Source: Promethearchaeota archaeon
Lineage (GTDB): Archaea; Asgardarchaeota; Lokiarchaeia; Sigynarchaeales; MK-D1
Assembly: GCA_016839865.1 (NCBI GenBank)
Contig: JAEOTN010000035.1
Location: 1 to 8,924, forward strand
Direction: 5' to 3'
Length of the DNA: 8,924 nt
The position numbers and the translations under genes are program-made. The stretch's first letter is position 1. Every line of letters starts with the position of its first letter. The notes below the pieces were generated by a model. That model ran no database searches. It saw only the letters and a list, made by a program, of their open reading frames with translations, and had not been told where the DNA came from. Shown here piece by piece: positions 1,336 through 8,924 of this stretch.

Positions 1336-1854
1336 TTGTCTCATATATCATTGAAAGTCCTCATTCTTGGCTCCGAGAATGTTGGAGAGCTGAATTTTCG
1401 AAAGATAGTGGACCGATACTTTAAAACTGATTACAAAAAAATAGTTGGAGTTAATGTTTTATCCAAAGCAATAGGTATAGAAATTGACAATAAGCAAATA
1501 AATGCCTTAGTGTCCTTGTGGGATATATCTACAAAAACTAGATTCGAAGAAATACGGAAATTATTTTACACAGGTGGGACGGGCGCTTTTTTTGTGTTTG
1601 ATCTAAGTAAACCACAAACTTGGTATCACATTATTGAGTTCTATAAAGAAATTGACTTTGTATTAGAAAAGATCCCATTTGTAGTCGTAGGAAATCTTGA
1701 CAAAGGCAAGGAAATTGCAGTGAATCCCCAAGATATTAAAGAATGGGTTAAAAATCACAATGGAATATTTATTCAGATTGATACTGATGATTTTTCCCTC
1801 CTGGAGACGACATTTCTGAATTTAGTCAAGAAAATCGTTGTGTATGAGGATTAA
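1336..1854 (+). CDS. Rab/Ras-like pseudoGTPase (G motifs degenerate)
   Basis: The 172 residues follow the Rab/Ras fold throughout: strand 1 and P-loop region (SLKVLILGSENVG), switch I region (YKKIVGVNV), LVSLWDIS at the Walker B/switch II position, the typical FYTGGTGAFFVFDLSKP segment, strand 5 (PFVVVGN) and a C-terminal helix. The nucleotide-handling residues are gone. The P-loop GxxxxGK(S/T) reads GSENVGEL (12-19), with no lysine and no Ser/Thr. The switch I threonine position is hydrophobic. DTAGQE is DISTKT (63-68), without the glycine and catalytic glutamine. NKxD is NLDK (120-123), and no SAK-like G5 motif is seen. It is therefore unlikely to bind or hydrolyse GTP in the normal way. 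It starts at TTG, with a possible TATA-like TTTTTAAA about 33 bp upstream and no Shine-Dalgarno. The LRR genes follow immediately, suggesting a shared complex. Family identity is strong; loss of activity is inferred from motifs. Confidence 0.8.
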   Translation: MSHISLKVLILGSENVGELNFRKIVDRYFKTDYKKIVGVNVLSKAIGIEIDNKQINALVSLWDISTKTRFEEIRKLFYTGGTGAFFVFDLSKPQTWYHIIEFYKEIDFVLEKIPFVVVGNLDKGKEIAVNPQDIKEWVKNHNGIFIQIDTDDFSLLETTFLNLVKKIVVYED

Positions 1855-1891
1855 GGTCATATTATATGTGAAAGGGAAATTGAATGGCAGA

Positions 1892-3073
1892 ATGTCCATA
1901 GATGAGAAAAAAGCATTAGTTGAATTTTTGGCAGATATTGACCAAACTTCGAACGAGGACATACTCCAACGTAGAAAAACATGTTTCTTCTCTGGAAAAC
2001 TTGTTAGTGTAGACCTTTCAAATTTAAACATGATAAATCTGCCACCAACATTAAAAAAATTCTCATACTTACGGAAAATTTACCTAAAATATAATCAAAT
2101 CAGAAAAATCCCGGCTGATATTTGTGAATTGTCCCATATTCGAACTCTTAACCTAAGAAACAACTCTCTTTCGTCTGTTCCTCCTTGTTTGAAGAATTTA
2201 AAATCACTTAGAAAATTAGACATTCGTGAAAACTCATTTTCTGAGATTCCTGAAGAATTATTTTACCTTGAAAATCTCCGTGAAATCAACTTTAGTAACA
2301 ATCCCATCAAAGAACTAAATCCAAATATATCAAAACTATCAAAATTACAGGTACTTATAGCCAAAAATATAGGCATATACACATTCTCTGGATTCCCTCT
2401 TCCTTTAAAAAAACTTCATACATTGGATTTAGGAGGGAATAATTTATCGTCACTACCCGATTCTCTCGATACGATCAATAATCTTCAGGTGTTAAATTTG
2501 CAGAAATGCCAATATACTGAAATACCGAAAGAAATTTCTCAACTTCAAAAATTGGTTAGATTAGATTTTCGTTCCAACAAAATTACAGAGATTCCACCTG
2601 CTTTGTTCTCTCTCTCCTTAATAAAAAGAATCGATCTTATTTCGAATTACATAAAACAAATCCCTAATTCCTTTCAAAAGGTCAGAAAATTAAAGGTGCT
2701 TCGTCTAGCAGATAACTACATTAAAAATCTCCCTGATAGCTTGATTCATCTAAACCAATTGACTCATTTGGAATTACATCATAACCAATTGCAAAATATT
2801 CCAAATTCCATTTTGAATCTGAAAAATCTACGCGAATTAAATTTATCTAATAATTTAATCACTGAACTACCAGAAAGGATCGATTGTCTTAAATCTTTAA
2901 GGTTTCTCGATATTAGTAATAATCCATTTGAAACCCTACCTACGACTCTGGTGCACTTACCACAATTAATTGGATTATGGTTATCGAAAAACATGATGGA
3001 GTGTCCAAAAAATGTGAAAATTATTGAATCGCTACAACGGAAAAATTGTTCAGTACAGATAAAACTAGGGTAA
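1892..3073 (+). CDS. Leucine-rich repeat protein 1 (14-15 repeats of 23 residues)
   Basis: Starting from the ATG at 1892 the protein has 393 residues. A short N-terminal helical region (about 1-36) ends in a cap with FFSGKLVSVDLSNL. Fourteen exact 23-residue repeats follow, then a fifteenth that degenerates into the C-terminal cap. The repeat pattern is LxxLxLxxNxLxxLPxxLxxLxx, the type found in SHOC2, plant PIRL and Roco proteins. The sixth repeat has lost the Asn and Pro positions. No signal peptide or membrane segment is seen, so the protein should be a cytosolic binding scaffold. In-frame starts at 1838 (TTG) and 1844 (ATG) would overlap the preceding pseudoGTPase gene. I prefer 1892 because its N-terminus lines up with that of the paralogue downstream; the choice is not certain. 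It lies between the pseudoGTPase gene and the second LRR gene, most likely in one transcript. Confidence 0.88.
   Translation: MSIDEKKALVEFLADIDQTSNEDILQRRKTCFFSGKLVSVDLSNLNMINLPPTLKKFSYLRKIYLKYNQIRKIPADICELSHIRTLNLRNNSLSSVPPCLKNLKSLRKLDIRENSFSEIPEELFYLENLREINFSNNPIKELNPNISKLSKLQVLIAKNIGIYTFSGFPLPLKKLHTLDLGGNNLSSLPDSLDTINNLQVLNLQKCQYTEIPKEISQLQKLVRLDFRSNKITEIPPALFSLSLIKRIDLISNYIKQIPNSFQKVRKLKVLRLADNYIKNLPDSLIHLNQLTHLELHHNQLQNIPNSILNLKNLRELNLSNNLITELPERIDCLKSLRFLDISNNPFETLPTTLVHLPQLIGLWLSKNMMECPKNVKIIESLQRKNCSVQIKLG
2000..2965 (+). repeat. Tandem LRR array, 14 units of 69 bp
   Basis: Fourteen consecutive protein repeats of exactly 23 residues, with no insertion or deletion, give a strict 69-bp coding period. 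Repeats are conserved at the Leu, Asn and Pro framework positions but strongly diverged at the DNA level and at surface positions. This indicates old duplication under structural constraint and not a recent DNA expansion. Confidence 0.88.
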
Positions 3074-3076
3074 AAT

Positions 3077-4267
3077 GTGTATAAAATGATTGATGGTCAA
3101 ATAGATGGGGATTCAAAGATCTTTTACCTCATTATTCAGGAACTGAAGTTAAGCGAAAAAACCAAAAAGATACTAAAACGTAGTAATACTGTTTTTTCGG
3201 GAGATCGACTAATATCGCTAAATCTGGCAAATTTACATATTCAAGTTTTACCTCAGCTCTTTTGTGAGCTGAAAAACTTACATCATCTCAATCTTTCCTC
3301 TAATTTTTTGACTGAAATACCCAATTGGATTGATGATTTAGACAAACTTGAATATTTAAACCTACAAAGCAATAATCTCACAACTTTACCGGAAAATCTT
3401 AGCAAATTGACCAATCTCCAATATTTAGATATTGGAAGGAACGACATTCGAACTTTACCATATGTCATAGGCCGATTAACGAATTTGGAGTATTTAAATA
3501 TAAAAACTAATGAAATTCTTGAACTTCCATCTAGTTTTTGGAACTTACGTAATCTAATAAAATTGGATATGCGTGGAAATAAACTGTCTTACTTGCCTTC
3601 TTCTATCTCAAATTTCTCTAAGCTCCAATTTCTGAATTTGCAGAGAAATAATTTTACTTCACTTCCTTCCGAATTATGCTCATTGCCAAGATTAATAAGA
3701 CTAGACATAAGAGACAACGAGATTGCTGCGTTGCCCAACAATTTTGCACAAATTAAATCTCTTAAACGGCTAGAGATTGGTTTTAACCGACTTTCTTCAC
3801 TCCCTGATAACATAGGAACTATGGATAATCTTGAAGAATTGCAATTATATAAAAATCGGTTGAAAAATCTCCCCGAGAGTCTAGGAGTTTTAGACAAATT
3901 ACGAAAATTAGATGTTCAACACAATTATCTAAAAGAGATCCCTCAAAAATTATGTAATTCAAAAAATTTGGTAGAATTATTGGTCAACGATAATAATATT
4001 GAAACTATACCGGATAATATTCATAAATTGAACAAGCTAACTATATTCCATCTACAAAATAATAAAATTCATTCACTTCCACTAAGCATTAATTCTATTC
4101 TTTTGGATTACATAGATATTTCTGGAAATCCAATACAAAAATTTCCCTTTACAATTGAATTCCTTGAAAACCTGCGATGTCTTGTTGTGGATGAATTCCA
4201 ACTTCAAGAATGGAAAAAAGAATTAGATATAATTCAGGAAAAAGTTAGAGCAGTTCCGTTAGGTTAG
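3077..4267 (+). CDS. Leucine-rich repeat protein 2, paralogue of the upstream LRR gene
   Basis: This 396-residue protein begins at GTG 3077, or at ATG 3086 (393 residues); the first is 3 bp after the previous stop and has a weak AGGG just upstream. Its N-terminal region (1-44) resembles that of its neighbour: a helix, then NTVFSGDRLISLNLANL as repeat cap. Fourteen LRR units follow, all of 23 residues except the thirteenth, which has 22. A C-terminal cap with two charged helical stretches closes the protein. The consensus LxxLxLxxNxLxxLPxxLxxLxx is more regular than in the first LRR protein. There are no membrane or secretion signals. The shared N-terminal cap and near-identical length show a tandem gene duplication. 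The concave-surface residues differ, so the two proteins probably bind different partners or cooperate on one. The stop codon overlaps the stop of the convergent CYTH gene. The partner is unknown; the adjacent pseudoGTPase is the obvious candidate. Confidence 0.88.
   Translation: MYKMIDGQIDGDSKIFYLIIQELKLSEKTKKILKRSNTVFSGDRLISLNLANLHIQVLPQLFCELKNLHHLNLSSNFLTEIPNWIDDLDKLEYLNLQSNNLTTLPENLSKLTNLQYLDIGRNDIRTLPYVIGRLTNLEYLNIKTNEILELPSSFWNLRNLIKLDMRGNKLSYLPSSISNFSKLQFLNLQRNNFTSLPSELCSLPRLIRLDIRDNEIAALPNNFAQIKSLKRLEIGFNRLSSLPDNIGTMDNLEELQLYKNRLKNLPESLGVLDKLRKLDVQHNYLKEIPQKLCNSKNLVELLVNDNNIETIPDNIHKLNKLTIFHLQNNKIHSLPLSINSILLDYIDISGNPIQKFPFTIEFLENLRCLVVDEFQLQEWKKELDIIQEKVRAVPLG
3209..4171 (+). repeat. 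Tandem LRR array, 14 units with a 69-bp period
   Basis: Fourteen LRR units are present, twelve of exactly 23 residues, then one of 22 and one of 23. The one-codon contraction in unit 13 is the only break in register. As in the upstream array, conservation is in the protein framework and not in the bases. Confidence 0.87.
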
Positions 4268-4812
4268 AAATATTGTATTAGGAATTCTGGGTAAGAAGTA
4301 TTTCCCTTTATTCGATCAATTCCTAGATTATTTTTTAAGAAATTATTAATGGCGTGAAAGTTTTGACTTTCAATTTCTATTGAATGCCATATTTTGTGGT
4401 GATTTTTAACGATGACTTTCTCTACGGTCACCTGATCTACTAGTGCTTTTTTTCGTTCTTTTTCCAACTTTACAAATTCATTTTCTCTCATAGATATAAT
4501 TGGTAGTATTTTTTCCGCAATAGGATGTTTTTTCAGCATTTTGATAATTTCATCTATGCTGTCGTCATAGATGGGAGTTTTAATCCGTTTCTCCCATAAC
4601 TCATAATGTTTTTTCTTAGATCTGAGTATTTTTAGTTCTAAAAGCTGGGAATTGCCCAAATATGAACGGATTTTCAATCCATAATTAGGTTTGTGTAAAT
4701 TTAAATACAAATCTGAACGAATTTCAGCAGCTACGCCCATTAATTTTTCTTCAATGATAGAAATCCATGATGGAACCTCTTTTTCAGAAAAGAAAATTCT
4801 CCATTCCCACAT
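4264..4812 (-). CDS. Small CYTH-like (triphosphate tunnel fold) protein
   Basis: The 182-residue protein has features of the CYTH superfamily: a first strand MWEWRIFF, then IRSDLYLNL followed by GLKIR (45-49), the strand LLELKIL (57-63), YELWEKR (70-76), a charged helix around KLEKERKKALVD, a strand VTVEKVIV and a late WHSIEIES (142-149). The alternating acidic and basic residues pointing into a beta-barrel are typical of proteins that bind triphosphates or polyanions with a metal. I do not recognise a named subfamily, and the standard ExExK start is not clear, so activity is unknown. The start is well supported by AGGAGA six bases upstream. The gene is 9 bp behind the VTC-like gene, whose stop codon overlaps that Shine-Dalgarno. 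This suggests translational coupling and a joint role. Its own stop overlaps the stop of the convergent LRR gene by 3 bp. Confidence 0.68.
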   Translation of the reverse strand: MWEWRIFFSEKEVPSWISIIEEKLMGVAAEIRSDLYLNLHKPNYGLKIRSYLGNSQLLELKILRSKKKHYELWEKRIKTPIYDDSIDEIIKMLKKHPIAEKILPIISMRENEFVKLEKERKKALVDQVTVEKVIVKNHHKIWHSIEIESQNFHAINNFLKNNLGIDRIKGNTSYPEFLIQYF

Positions 4813-4817
4813 AATAA

Positions 4818-4823
4818 TCTCCT
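4818..4823 (-). promoter_or_regulatory. Shine-Dalgarno for the CYTH-like gene, overlapping upstream stop codon
   Basis: On the minus strand AGGAGA lies 5 bases before the ATG at 4812 and shares bases with the TAG stop (4824-4822) of the VTC-like gene. It is the clearest ribosome binding site in the window, fixes the start of the small gene and suggests coupled translation. Confidence 0.7.
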
Positions 4824-6453
4824 AACTAATAAATTCCATAAGTTGGTCTTCAAACAACTCGATATCAAAATCTTCGATATCGATAGGATGAATCATCGTA
4901 GGAGCAAATTCGTTGTAAAATTCTGTTAATTCCTCATAAATTCTCTTTTGAATATCCATATTTACTGTGTTTTTTGCACCTATATATCTCATTTTGCAAT
5001 AAAGCTCCGAACGGATGTCAGTTCCCCGTGTTTGCTGGTTTTTTTCGATTGTTAACTTATATACTCTATCAGAGTTATTGTGTTTGACTAAAAATCCGTA
5101 ACTTCTTAAAAATGCATATCCATCAATAGAAATTGATGGTAATAGGTAGTCATTTAGACTGGTAACAGAATTTACTATAACCTCTCTTAAAGGAATTTCA
5201 TTTTTTTCGGTAATATAAAACTCTGGAGTGTCAGTCTTTATTGGGGTGCTTTTAGGAGGAAGAAAATATTGAATTTTCGGACCATGAATACGAATTACCA
5301 TAGAGGGGATCGGAAATCCGAGAAAACCTGAGACATAATTCTCATTTTTTATTAACATACGAGCATCTTCGTCATATAAGGAGAAATTCTTGGATGATCG
5401 GATTAGTTTATACAAATATCCCGTTATATTTCCATACCTATACCATGAGAAATCTACTGGAAAATATCCTGATATTTGTTTTCCTACCGGACCTGTCCAT
5501 AAATTCTGGTTCTGGATGTAATTTTCAGAAACCAATGTTGTTCCTCGCCATTTTTTGGAGATAAATGCTAAACATCCATATTTCCGTAGGATGCCACGTA
5601 TTTGAGTATCTAAGGTCTTCTCCTGCCTTATCATATCGGGATCGACTTTGAATTCTAAACGGCAAAATCTCTCGCGATCTAAGTATTCTCCTATAATATT
5701 TGGATTCTGTAAGAAATTTTCTGAATTGAGAAAATCAAGTGCATAATATTCTACTCCCGGATCAATGGTTATTCGGATAGTGCGTTTCAAATTCACATTT
5801 TCGGGAACTAAATGGATGCGAGAGTATTGAGTCATTAAGTAAGGAACCAATGTTTTTTGATGTAGTGTACGAATTTGGCTATTGAGCAGATTCCGAAGTT
5901 CTGGACTTAATCGTTCATCTAATATCGAAGGAACACATAATAAGGTTACAATCTCATCAAGGGTCAAATTTCCTTTTATTTCCTCCGAAATATCTTCCTT
6001 GCGTAATCTGCTTTTAGTTTTGAACGTAGATTGTTGTAATAATCCATCTTCAGAAGCCCTTTGAATGCGATAAATAATATCATCCCTCAAATTCTTCTGA
6101 GAAGAAATTAGTTTCTGATCTTGAGAATTTTTTTCTGAGAACTTGTGGAAATAAATTTCATCATGATTTAAAGTGGACTTTATCTCCAACAGATTGAATC
6201 GACTTTTTCCGGTGAATTCAACATGGTTCTCTTCCCCATTTTTATCATAAATTCGTCCCTTAATCGAAATTCCTGGTCGAACACCAAGCTTACTTCCGAA
6301 ATAGATAGTTTTTGTCACAGGAGAGCTTGGAAATGTTTGAATATTAAATCCAATTTTTAGAAAATCCTGCATTAATAAATTGAGATCTCTTGAATAGAAC
6401 ACGTAACGTAATTCATTTCGCTCTAAGTCAATAGGACGCAATGCTTTTTGCAT
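4822..6453 (-). CDS. VTC-like polyphosphate polymerase homologue with long C-terminal extension
   Basis: The N-terminal 310 of 543 residues match the VTC catalytic domain, a triphosphate tunnel fold that makes inorganic polyphosphate from ATP in yeast Vtc4. Visible landmarks in order are RNELRYVF (12-19), TKTIYF (47-52), VRPGISIKGRIY (58-69), HVEFTGKSR (77-85), YSRIHL with R212, RTIRITIDPG with R227 and D231, CRLEFK with E267 and K269, and ISKKWRG with K300. These correspond to the tunnel arginines, the metal-binding glutamate and the SK(Y/F) lysine of the family. There is no SPX domain and no transmembrane segment, so any product would be cytosolic. Residues 311-543 are not explained by the VTC domain; around 445-490 they contain GYAFLRSYGFLV, VYKLTIEK and IRSELYCKMR, which could be a second CYTH-like unit. 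The ATG at 6453 is preceded by an AGGATGA element. Family assignment is by eye from conserved motifs; polymerase activity is inferred. Confidence 0.72.
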   Translation of the reverse strand: MQKALRPIDLERNELRYVFYSRDLNLLMQDFLKIGFNIQTFPSSPVTKTIYFGSKLGVRPGISIKGRIYDKNGEENHVEFTGKSRFNLLEIKSTLNHDEIYFHKFSEKNSQDQKLISSQKNLRDDIIYRIQRASEDGLLQQSTFKTKSRLRKEDISEEIKGNLTLDEIVTLLCVPSILDERLSPELRNLLNSQIRTLHQKTLVPYLMTQYSRIHLVPENVNLKRTIRITIDPGVEYYALDFLNSENFLQNPNIIGEYLDRERFCRLEFKVDPDMIRQEKTLDTQIRGILRKYGCLAFISKKWRGTTLVSENYIQNQNLWTGPVGKQISGYFPVDFSWYRYGNITGYLYKLIRSSKNFSLYDEDARMLIKNENYVSGFLGFPIPSMVIRIHGPKIQYFLPPKSTPIKTDTPEFYITEKNEIPLREVIVNSVTSLNDYLLPSISIDGYAFLRSYGFLVKHNNSDRVYKLTIEKNQQTRGTDIRSELYCKMRYIGAKNTVNMDIQKRIYEELTEFYNEFAPTMIHPIDIEDFDIELFEDQLMEFIS

Positions 6454-6598: not shown

Positions 6599-7318
6599 CT
6601 ACTTTTTCGTACCAGTCTTTCTGGCTGCAATTAAACCTACTTTTCTACCAGGAGGTGCGTTTCTACTAACAGTTGTTGGTTTGTGAGGGCTTTTATGGCC
6701 ACCACCACCAAATGGATGACTCGCTGCTGTCATAGCTACACCAGAAGTGCGAGGCCAAACACCGTGTCTAGTCTTCATTAAATGGAATTTCTTTCCCGCC
6801 TTAGTAAAAGGTTTGATTTGCCTACCCCCTCCACTCACAACTCCAATTGTGCATCGGGAGTTTAGAGGAATTCTCTTGATCTTACCCGAGGGTAAACGGA
6901 TGTTCGCATGGGTTGGTGTTTTAGTCATCATTACAGCATAGGTTCCAGATCCCCGAACAAATTTTCCACCATCGTCTTTTTGACCTTCAATATTGTATAT
7001 ATAGGTGGATTCTGGCACATTTTTCAGCAATAAGATATTGCCAACTTTTATTTCTGTTTTATCACCCACTTCGACTGTGTCTCCCACTTTAATTCCTTCA
7101 GGAGGGAGGTACAATCCCTTTTTGCCATCTTCGTATTGGATTAACGCAACCGGACATCCTCTTCCAGGATCGTGGAGCAGATCTTTTACAGTCGCTTTCA
7201 ATGGATTTTCATTATTCTGAAAGTATCGGTATTTGATTTTTCCTCGGCGTTTATGAGTAGGAGATTGGAAATTTGGAGTTCCCCGACCTCTCCTCTGCAC
7301 TAATATTCGTTTTCCCAT
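6599..7318 (-). CDS. rpl2: Large subunit ribosomal protein uL2 (archaeal L2)
   Basis: The 239-residue protein has the archaeal/eukaryotic uL2 sequence end to end: start MGKRILVQRRGRG, LLHDPGRGCPVALIQY, LPPEGIKVGDTVEVG, a Gly-rich GGKFVRGSGTYA, NSRCTIGVVSGGGR, and the C-terminal signature HPFGGGG, then PTTVSRNAPPGRKVG and LIAARKTG. uL2 is a core protein of the 50S subunit that supports the peptidyl transferase centre, and length is normal. The ATG at 7318 is chosen over the in-frame GTG at 7327 because MGKR is the canonical family N-terminus; GTGAT just upstream may act as Shine-Dalgarno. Before HPFGGG the protein has GVAMTAAS where archaeal proteins usually have an Asn after the Met and Asp or Asn before the His. 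The gene lacks its usual S10-cluster neighbours (uL23 upstream, uS19 downstream) and is divergent from pan. Confidence 0.97.
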   Translation of the reverse strand: MGKRILVQRRGRGTPNFQSPTHKRRGKIKYRYFQNNENPLKATVKDLLHDPGRGCPVALIQYEDGKKGLYLPPEGIKVGDTVEVGDKTEIKVGNILLLKNVPESTYIYNIEGQKDDGGKFVRGSGTYAVMMTKTPTHANIRLPSGKIKRIPLNSRCTIGVVSGGGRQIKPFTKAGKKFHLMKTRHGVWPRTSGVAMTAASHPFGGGGHKSPHKPTTVSRNAPPGRKVGLIAARKTGTKK

Positions 7319-7393
7319 GTATATCACTGTGTTGTGGGTATCATTTTGAATTACTATTGGATGGCTATACCAATTATCCCATATTTTTGAATT

Positions 7394-8608: not shown

Positions 8609-8924
8609 CTATTTTTCTTCTTTTTCCACTTGTTCTCCCCAATAATGTTCCCTAGGAATAGGATCTAACGTAGTAGTTATATCTTTGATATTTTCTTCAA
8701 TTCCTTGCATCAATAGATATCCTGAATTTAGTTCTCTATTCGTGATTTCTCCTGCAACGTTGGTTGTCATGATTTTTTCCACTTCTTTTACATTACGAGT
8801 GTGACCTAACGCCCATATCATTTTTGCATAAGCCGCGGATGGAAGCATGTTTGCTCCTTCAATCACACCTAATGCCAACATATCTCTTCCAGTTTCATAC
8901 ACTCGAAGATTAGTATACCCGTAT
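8609..8924 (-). CDS. C-terminal part of an asparaginase-family protein (L-asparaginase or GatD), 5' end beyond window
   Basis: About 104 C-terminal residues are seen, reading in from the window edge as GYTNLRVYETGRDMLALG. The segment VYETGRDML, GVIEGANMLPSAAYAKM, IWALGHT and then TTNVAGEI is the C-terminal domain pattern of type I asparaginases and of GatD, the asparaginase-like subunit of the archaeal GatDE amidotransferase that makes Gln-tRNA(Gln). The MLP wording leans slightly towards GatD; the divergent acidic tail gives no help. Catalytic threonines and the N-terminal GatD-specific domain would lie outside the window, so the two cannot be separated here. The GTG at 8902 is an internal valine and not a start. 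The gene is convergent with pan, with 5 bp between the two stop codons. Confidence 0.75.
   Translation of the reverse strand, partial: YGYTNLRVYETGRDMLALGVIEGANMLPSAAYAKMIWALGHTRNVKEVEKIMTTNVAGEITNRELNSGYLLMQGIEENIKDITTTLDPIPREHYWGEQVEKEEK

Follow-up and report, generated by a model that had tools for sequence, protein, structure and literature searches.

The 8,924-nucleotide stretch of DNA analyzed here (the window: contig JAEOTN010000035.1, assembly GCA_016839865.1, of a Promethearchaeota archaeon) carries a conserved Asgard four-gene cassette made up of two facing pairs of closely spaced genes. One pair encodes two leucine-rich repeat (LRR) proteins, LRR1 and LRR2, and the other encodes two proteins with predicted triphosphate-tunnel folds, the VTC-like and MWEW proteins. 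The LRR pair is preceded by a gene for a degenerate Ras-like protein, the pseudoGTPase, which looks like a sub-lineage-specific neighbor of the cassette, that is, a local add-on. Our overall explanation, which we favor with modest confidence, is a phosphate-tunnel cassette scaffolded by the LRR pair, beside which a pseudoGTPase has been recruited. It builds on gene order, recurrence of the cassette in changed flanks, predicted tunnel folds, invariant charged residues and purifying selection, all of which were observed. The genes concerned are as follows:

1336..1854, + strand: pseudoGTPase, probably Rab-derived, 172 amino acids (aa) (open reading frame [ORF] call, Pfam Ras match, loss of G motifs)
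1892..3073, + strand: LRR1, 393 aa counted from ATG 1892, 23-residue repeats (ORF call, Pfam LRR_8 match, repeat spacing)
3077..4267, + strand: LRR2, 396 aa, 23-residue repeats, starting 3 bp past the end of LRR1
4264..4812, - strand: MWEW protein, 182 aa, predicted triphosphate-tunnel (CYTH/TTM-like) fold, tail-to-tail with LRR2
4822..6453, - strand: VTC-like tandem tunnel protein, 543 aa (predicted structure), with an N domain at about residues 12-315 and a C domain at about 320-525, boundaries set in the present analysis

Conservation of the four-gene cassette

The first relatives found were two Lokiarchaeota records, SDNX01000009 (L001, genome G001) and JAFGBS010000004 (L002, genome G002); a third matched locus, L003 from Paenibacillus (69 bases), was judged spurious and excluded. 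L001, L002 and the window are collinear over a whole block: radical-SAM-like gene, 180-aa ORF, pseudoGTPase, LRR1, LRR2, MWEW, VTC-like, L2, PAN-like and GatD (labels in L001 and L002 were assigned by eye and alignment). When 227 genomes of the phylum were scanned, the VTC-like gene was identified in eight, the identical eight by two profiles, and MWEW in ten, comprising seven of the eight VTC-like genomes, G072 and G073 with distant relatives, and G033. The G033 match (43 residues, E 5.6e-5) was judged a probable chance hit, no cassette gene being found around it. MWEW adjoined the VTC-like gene in seven of the eight, with the LRR1-LRR2 pair adjoining MWEW in turn, and the order LRR1>LRR2> <MWEW <VTC-like was the same in G155, G156, G162, G046, G053, G001 and G002 as at positions 1892-6453 of the window, making eight cassettes with the window itself. 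In all eight, LRR1 and LRR2 either overlapped or were separated by no more than 24 bp, and in six, the window included, the 3' ends of LRR2 and MWEW overlapped by 4-23 bp.

The five cassettes in G155, G156, G162, G046 and G053 were found in other surroundings. Their regions of 13-19 kb (some contigs are short; that of G162 is 13.4 kb) were scored with hidden Markov models (HMMs) from the block genes, labeled pelota, radical SAM, 180-aa ORF, pseudoGTPase, L2, PAN, GatD, GatE and GNAT (the pelota, GatE and GNAT labels by eye), against ORFs of at least 80 aa, and no model of the other block genes, including the pseudoGTPase, matched there. Since none of these models found a match around five of the seven cassettes, the cassette outlives its flanks. 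The linkage among its four genes is well supported. In three of the five distant cassettes, LRR1 is immediately preceded by a NUDIX gene (L034 6113-6610, L035 2944-3444 and L036 12493-13014), an arrangement consistent with phosphoanhydride chemistry. The distant MWEW-like proteins of G072 and G073 are encoded at L040 638-1357 and L041 1-494, and in both loci the gene adjoins an opposite-strand ORF whose beginning we read as DnaJ-like. No description of a cassette pairing LRR proteins with tunnel proteins was found among the titles and abstract openings listed from the open-access literature. An anti-phage defense role was dismissed on the basis that a PADLOC search matched none of six proteins at E<=1e-3.

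The LRR pair

A first-pass annotation of this DNA had described a Rab/Ras-like protein and two LRR proteins encoded back to back on one strand (1336-4267) and assigned SHOC2/Roco-type 23-residue repeats to the latter two. The three ORFs are present on the + strand at 1336-1854, 1838/1892-3073 and 3077-4267, and the repeats were borne out by Pfam LRR_8 matches at E<1e-43 for both proteins and a spacing of mainly 23 residues or multiples of it. LRR1 could start at TTG 1838 or ATG 1892; alignment with its relatives supports ATG 1892, so that no overlap with the G-domain gene is needed. In a maximum-likelihood tree of 32 LRR proteins (17 loci were chosen for the comparison, of which one yielded no row), the eight cassette LRR1s formed a single clade with support of 100/100, separate from the eight LRR2s and 16 further LRR proteins of the phylum. 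For the LRR2s, only 64% of the 200 bootstrap replicates recovered one group, and a single origin is tentative. We infer that LRR1 and LRR2 are old paralogues retained in a fixed order. When LRR2 was compared with genome contigs, 31 stretches fitted the pattern and none was a relative.

The tunnel-fold proteins

The predicted structure of the MWEW protein has a triphosphate-tunnel (CYTH/TTM-like) fold, and that of the VTC-like protein has two tunnels in tandem, the first of VTC type and closest to yeast VTC. Charged residues are invariant in both families: K65, R67, E90, K92, K145, K147, R149, R212, R227, E267, K269 and K300 in all 47 rows for VTC-like, and E3, R5, K47, R49, E59, K61, K75, K118 and E131 in all 30 rows for MWEW. 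Eleven VTC proteins from the phylum share the motif order of the VTC-like N domain (hhalign E 0.0008), and, in what is a weak profile alignment, the domain's invariant basic and glutamate positions are collinear with the catalytic sites of the polymerase, with conservative changes. Among the matches listed, Pfam VTC (PF09359) was precomputed for five of 48 VTC-like relatives. Pfam SPX had no match in the VTC-like protein, whose 543 residues are occupied by the two modeled tunnels. A profile comparison of MWEW and both VTC-like domains detected no mutual sequence similarity, so that their kinship is one of fold only. Alignment A11 omits four shorter rows of 48, and alignment A12 omits three of 29.

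Several results weigh against the explanation that we favor. The VTC-like gene of G038 (L037 7520-9181) has no LRR or MWEW match within 17 kb, and no LRR match was found on the short contigs that carry the distant MWEW relatives of G072 and G073. The LRR2 profile matched in 65 of the 227 genomes at E<=1e-50 (with no more than eight candidates scored in any genome listed), and because LRR proteins are so common, adjacency to tunnel genes is by itself less telling than the fixed order. The window VTC-like protein scored 18.8 bits with PF09359, under the gathering score of 23, and the hhalign probability against the VTC profile was 24%. Sequence searches of the PDB with the VTC-like and MWEW families returned no tunnel protein (best E 0.3 and 1.8) and, with the VTC-like profile, no VTC entry (best E 0.3). 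Lysine 200 of yeast Vtc4, which we take to be a functional position, has R16 as its counterpart in the VTC-like protein. By motif, Vtc4 R264, essential according to PMC8749416, corresponds to K65, and because of these two replacements polymerase activity may be absent. As for MWEW, the hallmark of CYTH/TTM proteins is an N-terminal ExExK (PMC8233210), whereas strand 1 of MWEW reads xWEWR and x is a residue other than Glu in each of the 30 rows, so that the first Glu is missing; Pfam CYTH left the window protein unmatched and hit one of 30 members at E 0.026.

The pseudoGTPase

The G-domain protein of the window matched Pfam Ras (E=1.8e-18, 67.1 bits) and, more weakly, Pfam Roc (E=1.9e-13, 51.1 bits, cut-off 27), and the best 60 of its 177 PDB sequence matches were all named Rab/Ypt, confirming a Ras-like domain. 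Its P-loop reads GSENVGEL, DISTK stands where DxxGQ is expected, and NKxD and SAK are absent, in agreement with the degeneracy reported in the first-pass annotation. A search of 5.8 billion proteins gave 42 scored candidates, ten of which were members at E<=1e-10, including the window's own; the other nine (two of them fragments) are 55-73% identical to it. Among the ten rows of their alignment (A1), nine cover the P-loop and five of these keep GK[ST]; GE[LIV] occurs in the window and two relatives, and the P-loop is shortened in one further row. G3 is altered in all ten rows (DIS[STG][KN] for DxxGQ in nine, DIVVR in a fragment), while the lysine of NKxD (G4) and the ETSAK motif (G5) are gone from all nine rows that reach them. 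Judged by these motifs, degeneracy is graded within the family.

In G001 and G002 the best-scoring other match was a canonical Rab-like GTPase (GPAGVGKTSL, WDIGGQE, GNKLDL, ETSAKD), which suggests that the pseudoGTPase derives from a Rab and no longer recognizes guanine, the P-loop lysine having been lost as well in the branch of the window. Further Rab-like GTPases of G001 and G002 are partly degenerate, at L057 6393-6911 (GPAGSGKRGL, GNNLD) and L058 6697-7248 (GPAGSGKEKL, WDIGNQE, GNHLE), and loss of G motifs is therefore recurrent in these genomes. In three pairs, the nonsynonymous proportion pN was 0.25-0.29 and the synonymous proportion pS 0.71-0.83, with pS near saturation, so that only the contrast is meaningful; on this measure the pseudoGTPase is under purifying selection and not decaying.

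Alternative explanations

The closest competitor, which we place just short of an even chance, is that the pseudoGTPase has no connection with the cassette and merely sits in a stable neighborhood, the four-gene cassette being the unit. It shares the cassette part of our explanation and differs over the pseudoGTPase alone. In its favor, the whole block is collinear in L001 and L002, no pseudoGTPase match occurs near the five other cassettes, and in L002 the 736 bp between the pseudoGTPase and LRR1 contain no long ORF of their own. The first-pass annotation had described almost no spacing along the trio; this stood for LRR1 and LRR2 in all eight cassettes but not for the G-domain gene, whose gap to LRR1 is 37 bp in the window but 114 and 736 bp in L001 and L002, respectively, and close packing there is particular to the window. 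The L002 interval (10520-11255) holds no ORF >45 aa except those overlapping the flanking genes, and a gene has perhaps been lost from it. Against this alternative, the pseudoGTPase gene immediately precedes the LRR pair in all three loci where it was seen, and a partnership of LRR and Ras-like proteins would have a precedent in SHOC2-MRAS-PP1C, in which an LRR protein is reportedly able to partner a Ras-like protein.

We consider it unlikely that the substrates of the tunnel proteins are nucleic acid or nucleotides rather than polyphosphate, with RNA 5'-triphosphates being bound or hydrolyzed and the LRR pair serving as a recognition module. The C-terminal tunnel of the VTC-like protein (about 320-525) is nearest to RNA triphosphatases, RESC1/RESC2 and Mediator Med18/20 chains, a likeness of fold alone.

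Least probable, and in our view a poor candidate, is the proposal of the first-pass annotation that the pseudoGTPase and two LRR proteins form a functional unit, a split Roco-like module: the window, L001 and L002 all have the three genes adjacent on one strand, purifying selection maintains the pseudoGTPase and the Pfam Roc model exceeds its cut-off, but Ras and Rab structures match better, no COR was matched, and the orthologue is restricted to two genomes whereas the LRR pair is found again beside tunnel genes instead. With E<=1e-36 as the threshold and no more than 15 candidates scored in any genome listed, that orthologue was present in G001 and G002 and missing in the other 225 of the 227 genomes. 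The Asgard origin of the trio is supported, and its order is kept in those two genomes, but this order is inseparable from the collinearity of the block from the radical-SAM-like gene to GatD, and for that reason is weak evidence of function. As a conserved unit the trio did not hold up, since the five other LRR1-LRR2 cassettes have no pseudoGTPase match around them and the conserved partners are the tunnel proteins. PMC4721548 describes Roc in tandem with COR, and the absence of COR noted in the first-pass annotation was reproduced among Pfam matches at E<=0.01 for ten window proteins, pseudoGTPase and LRRs included, on which ground Roco membership was dismissed. LRRs and a Ras-like domain encoded together do recall Roco proteins (LRR-Roc-COR); the window differs in its separate chains, its degenerate and Rab-closer G domain and the lack of a COR match.

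Neighboring genes

The remaining features of the window are:

2-634: radical-SAM-like protein, partial, below the Pfam cut-off
746-1288: 180-aa ORF of a family without a name
6599-7327: ribosomal L2
7467-8603: PAN-like AAA ATPase
8609-8923: GatD, terminal part

The radical-SAM-like, L2, PAN-like and GatD genes are ordinary neighbors of the cassette in the window. Relatives of the 746-1288 ORF occur in 40 of the 227 genomes at E<=1e-4, and weak KH (NusA-like) similarity was detected in one of three family members, not the window's own. An association with the G protein beyond this block was dismissed, as in all eight loci of about 3 kb that were examined (L008-L015) the relatives lay in other contexts with no pseudoGTPase-HMM match beside them.

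Proposed mechanism and related systems

The joint conservation of two LRR proteins and three tunnel domains suggests a phosphate-handling complex built on a scaffold. In the explanation that we favor, LRR1 and LRR2 most likely work as a pair, in the role of scaffold or sensor, to hold and regulate a soluble, physically associated tunnel complex, to which the VTC-like protein would contribute two tunnel domains in one chain and MWEW a third. The VTC-like N domain probably binds and transfers or polymerizes phosphate, as polyphosphate or a triphosphate compound. In yeast, Vtc3 accompanies Vtc4, and the remaining tunnels would likewise be accessory subunits. In the sub-lineage of the window, a Rab-type GTPase would have lost GTP recognition and later been recruited beside the LRR pair, where it is probably a nucleotide-independent binding partner or adaptor, contacting the LRR proteins through its Rab surface instead of through GTP. 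We regard as possible, though doubtful, the fuller proposal of an Asgard LRR-scaffolded three-tunnel machine, a counterpart of the eukaryotic VTC complex, which in a single lineage gained a regulatory subunit by capturing a pseudoGTPase of Rab descent.

Compared with the VTC polyphosphate polymerase (yeast Vtc4 with Vtc3/Vtc2), the cassette has an LRR pair alongside, and its VTC-like protein has two tunnels in the model, no Pfam SPX match and a score below the Pfam VTC cut-off. MWEW differs from CYTH/TTM enzymes such as SaTTM, ygiF and ThTPase in the missing first Glu of ExExK and the lack of a Pfam CYTH match. The arrangement may resemble SHOC2-MRAS-PP1C, with an LRR protein, a Ras-like protein and a phosphate enzyme in separate chains, but here the enzyme is a tunnel protein, the G protein is degenerate and optional, and binding is putative. 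The eukaryotic pseudoGTPase CENP-M is described in PMC10211241 as having a Ras-like fold, nucleotide motifs that do not work and a scaffold role; the window pseudoGTPase is likewise Ras-like without working nucleotide motifs and differs in its apparent origin from a Lokiarchaeal Rab-like GTPase.

To our knowledge, few Asgard LRR proteins and Ras-like GTPases have assigned partners. These genomes are rich in both, and the cassette offers two LRR families a concrete set of partners. It points to LRR-controlled phosphate-tunnel chemistry, on polyphosphate or triphosphate, in archaea related to eukaryotes, and the pseudoGTPase provides a prokaryotic example of a Rab-type protein in which GTP-recognition motifs were lost and purifying selection was retained. 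If the capture of the pseudoGTPase is true, it would represent a separate-chain assembly of LRR protein, G protein and phosphate enzyme outside eukaryotes.
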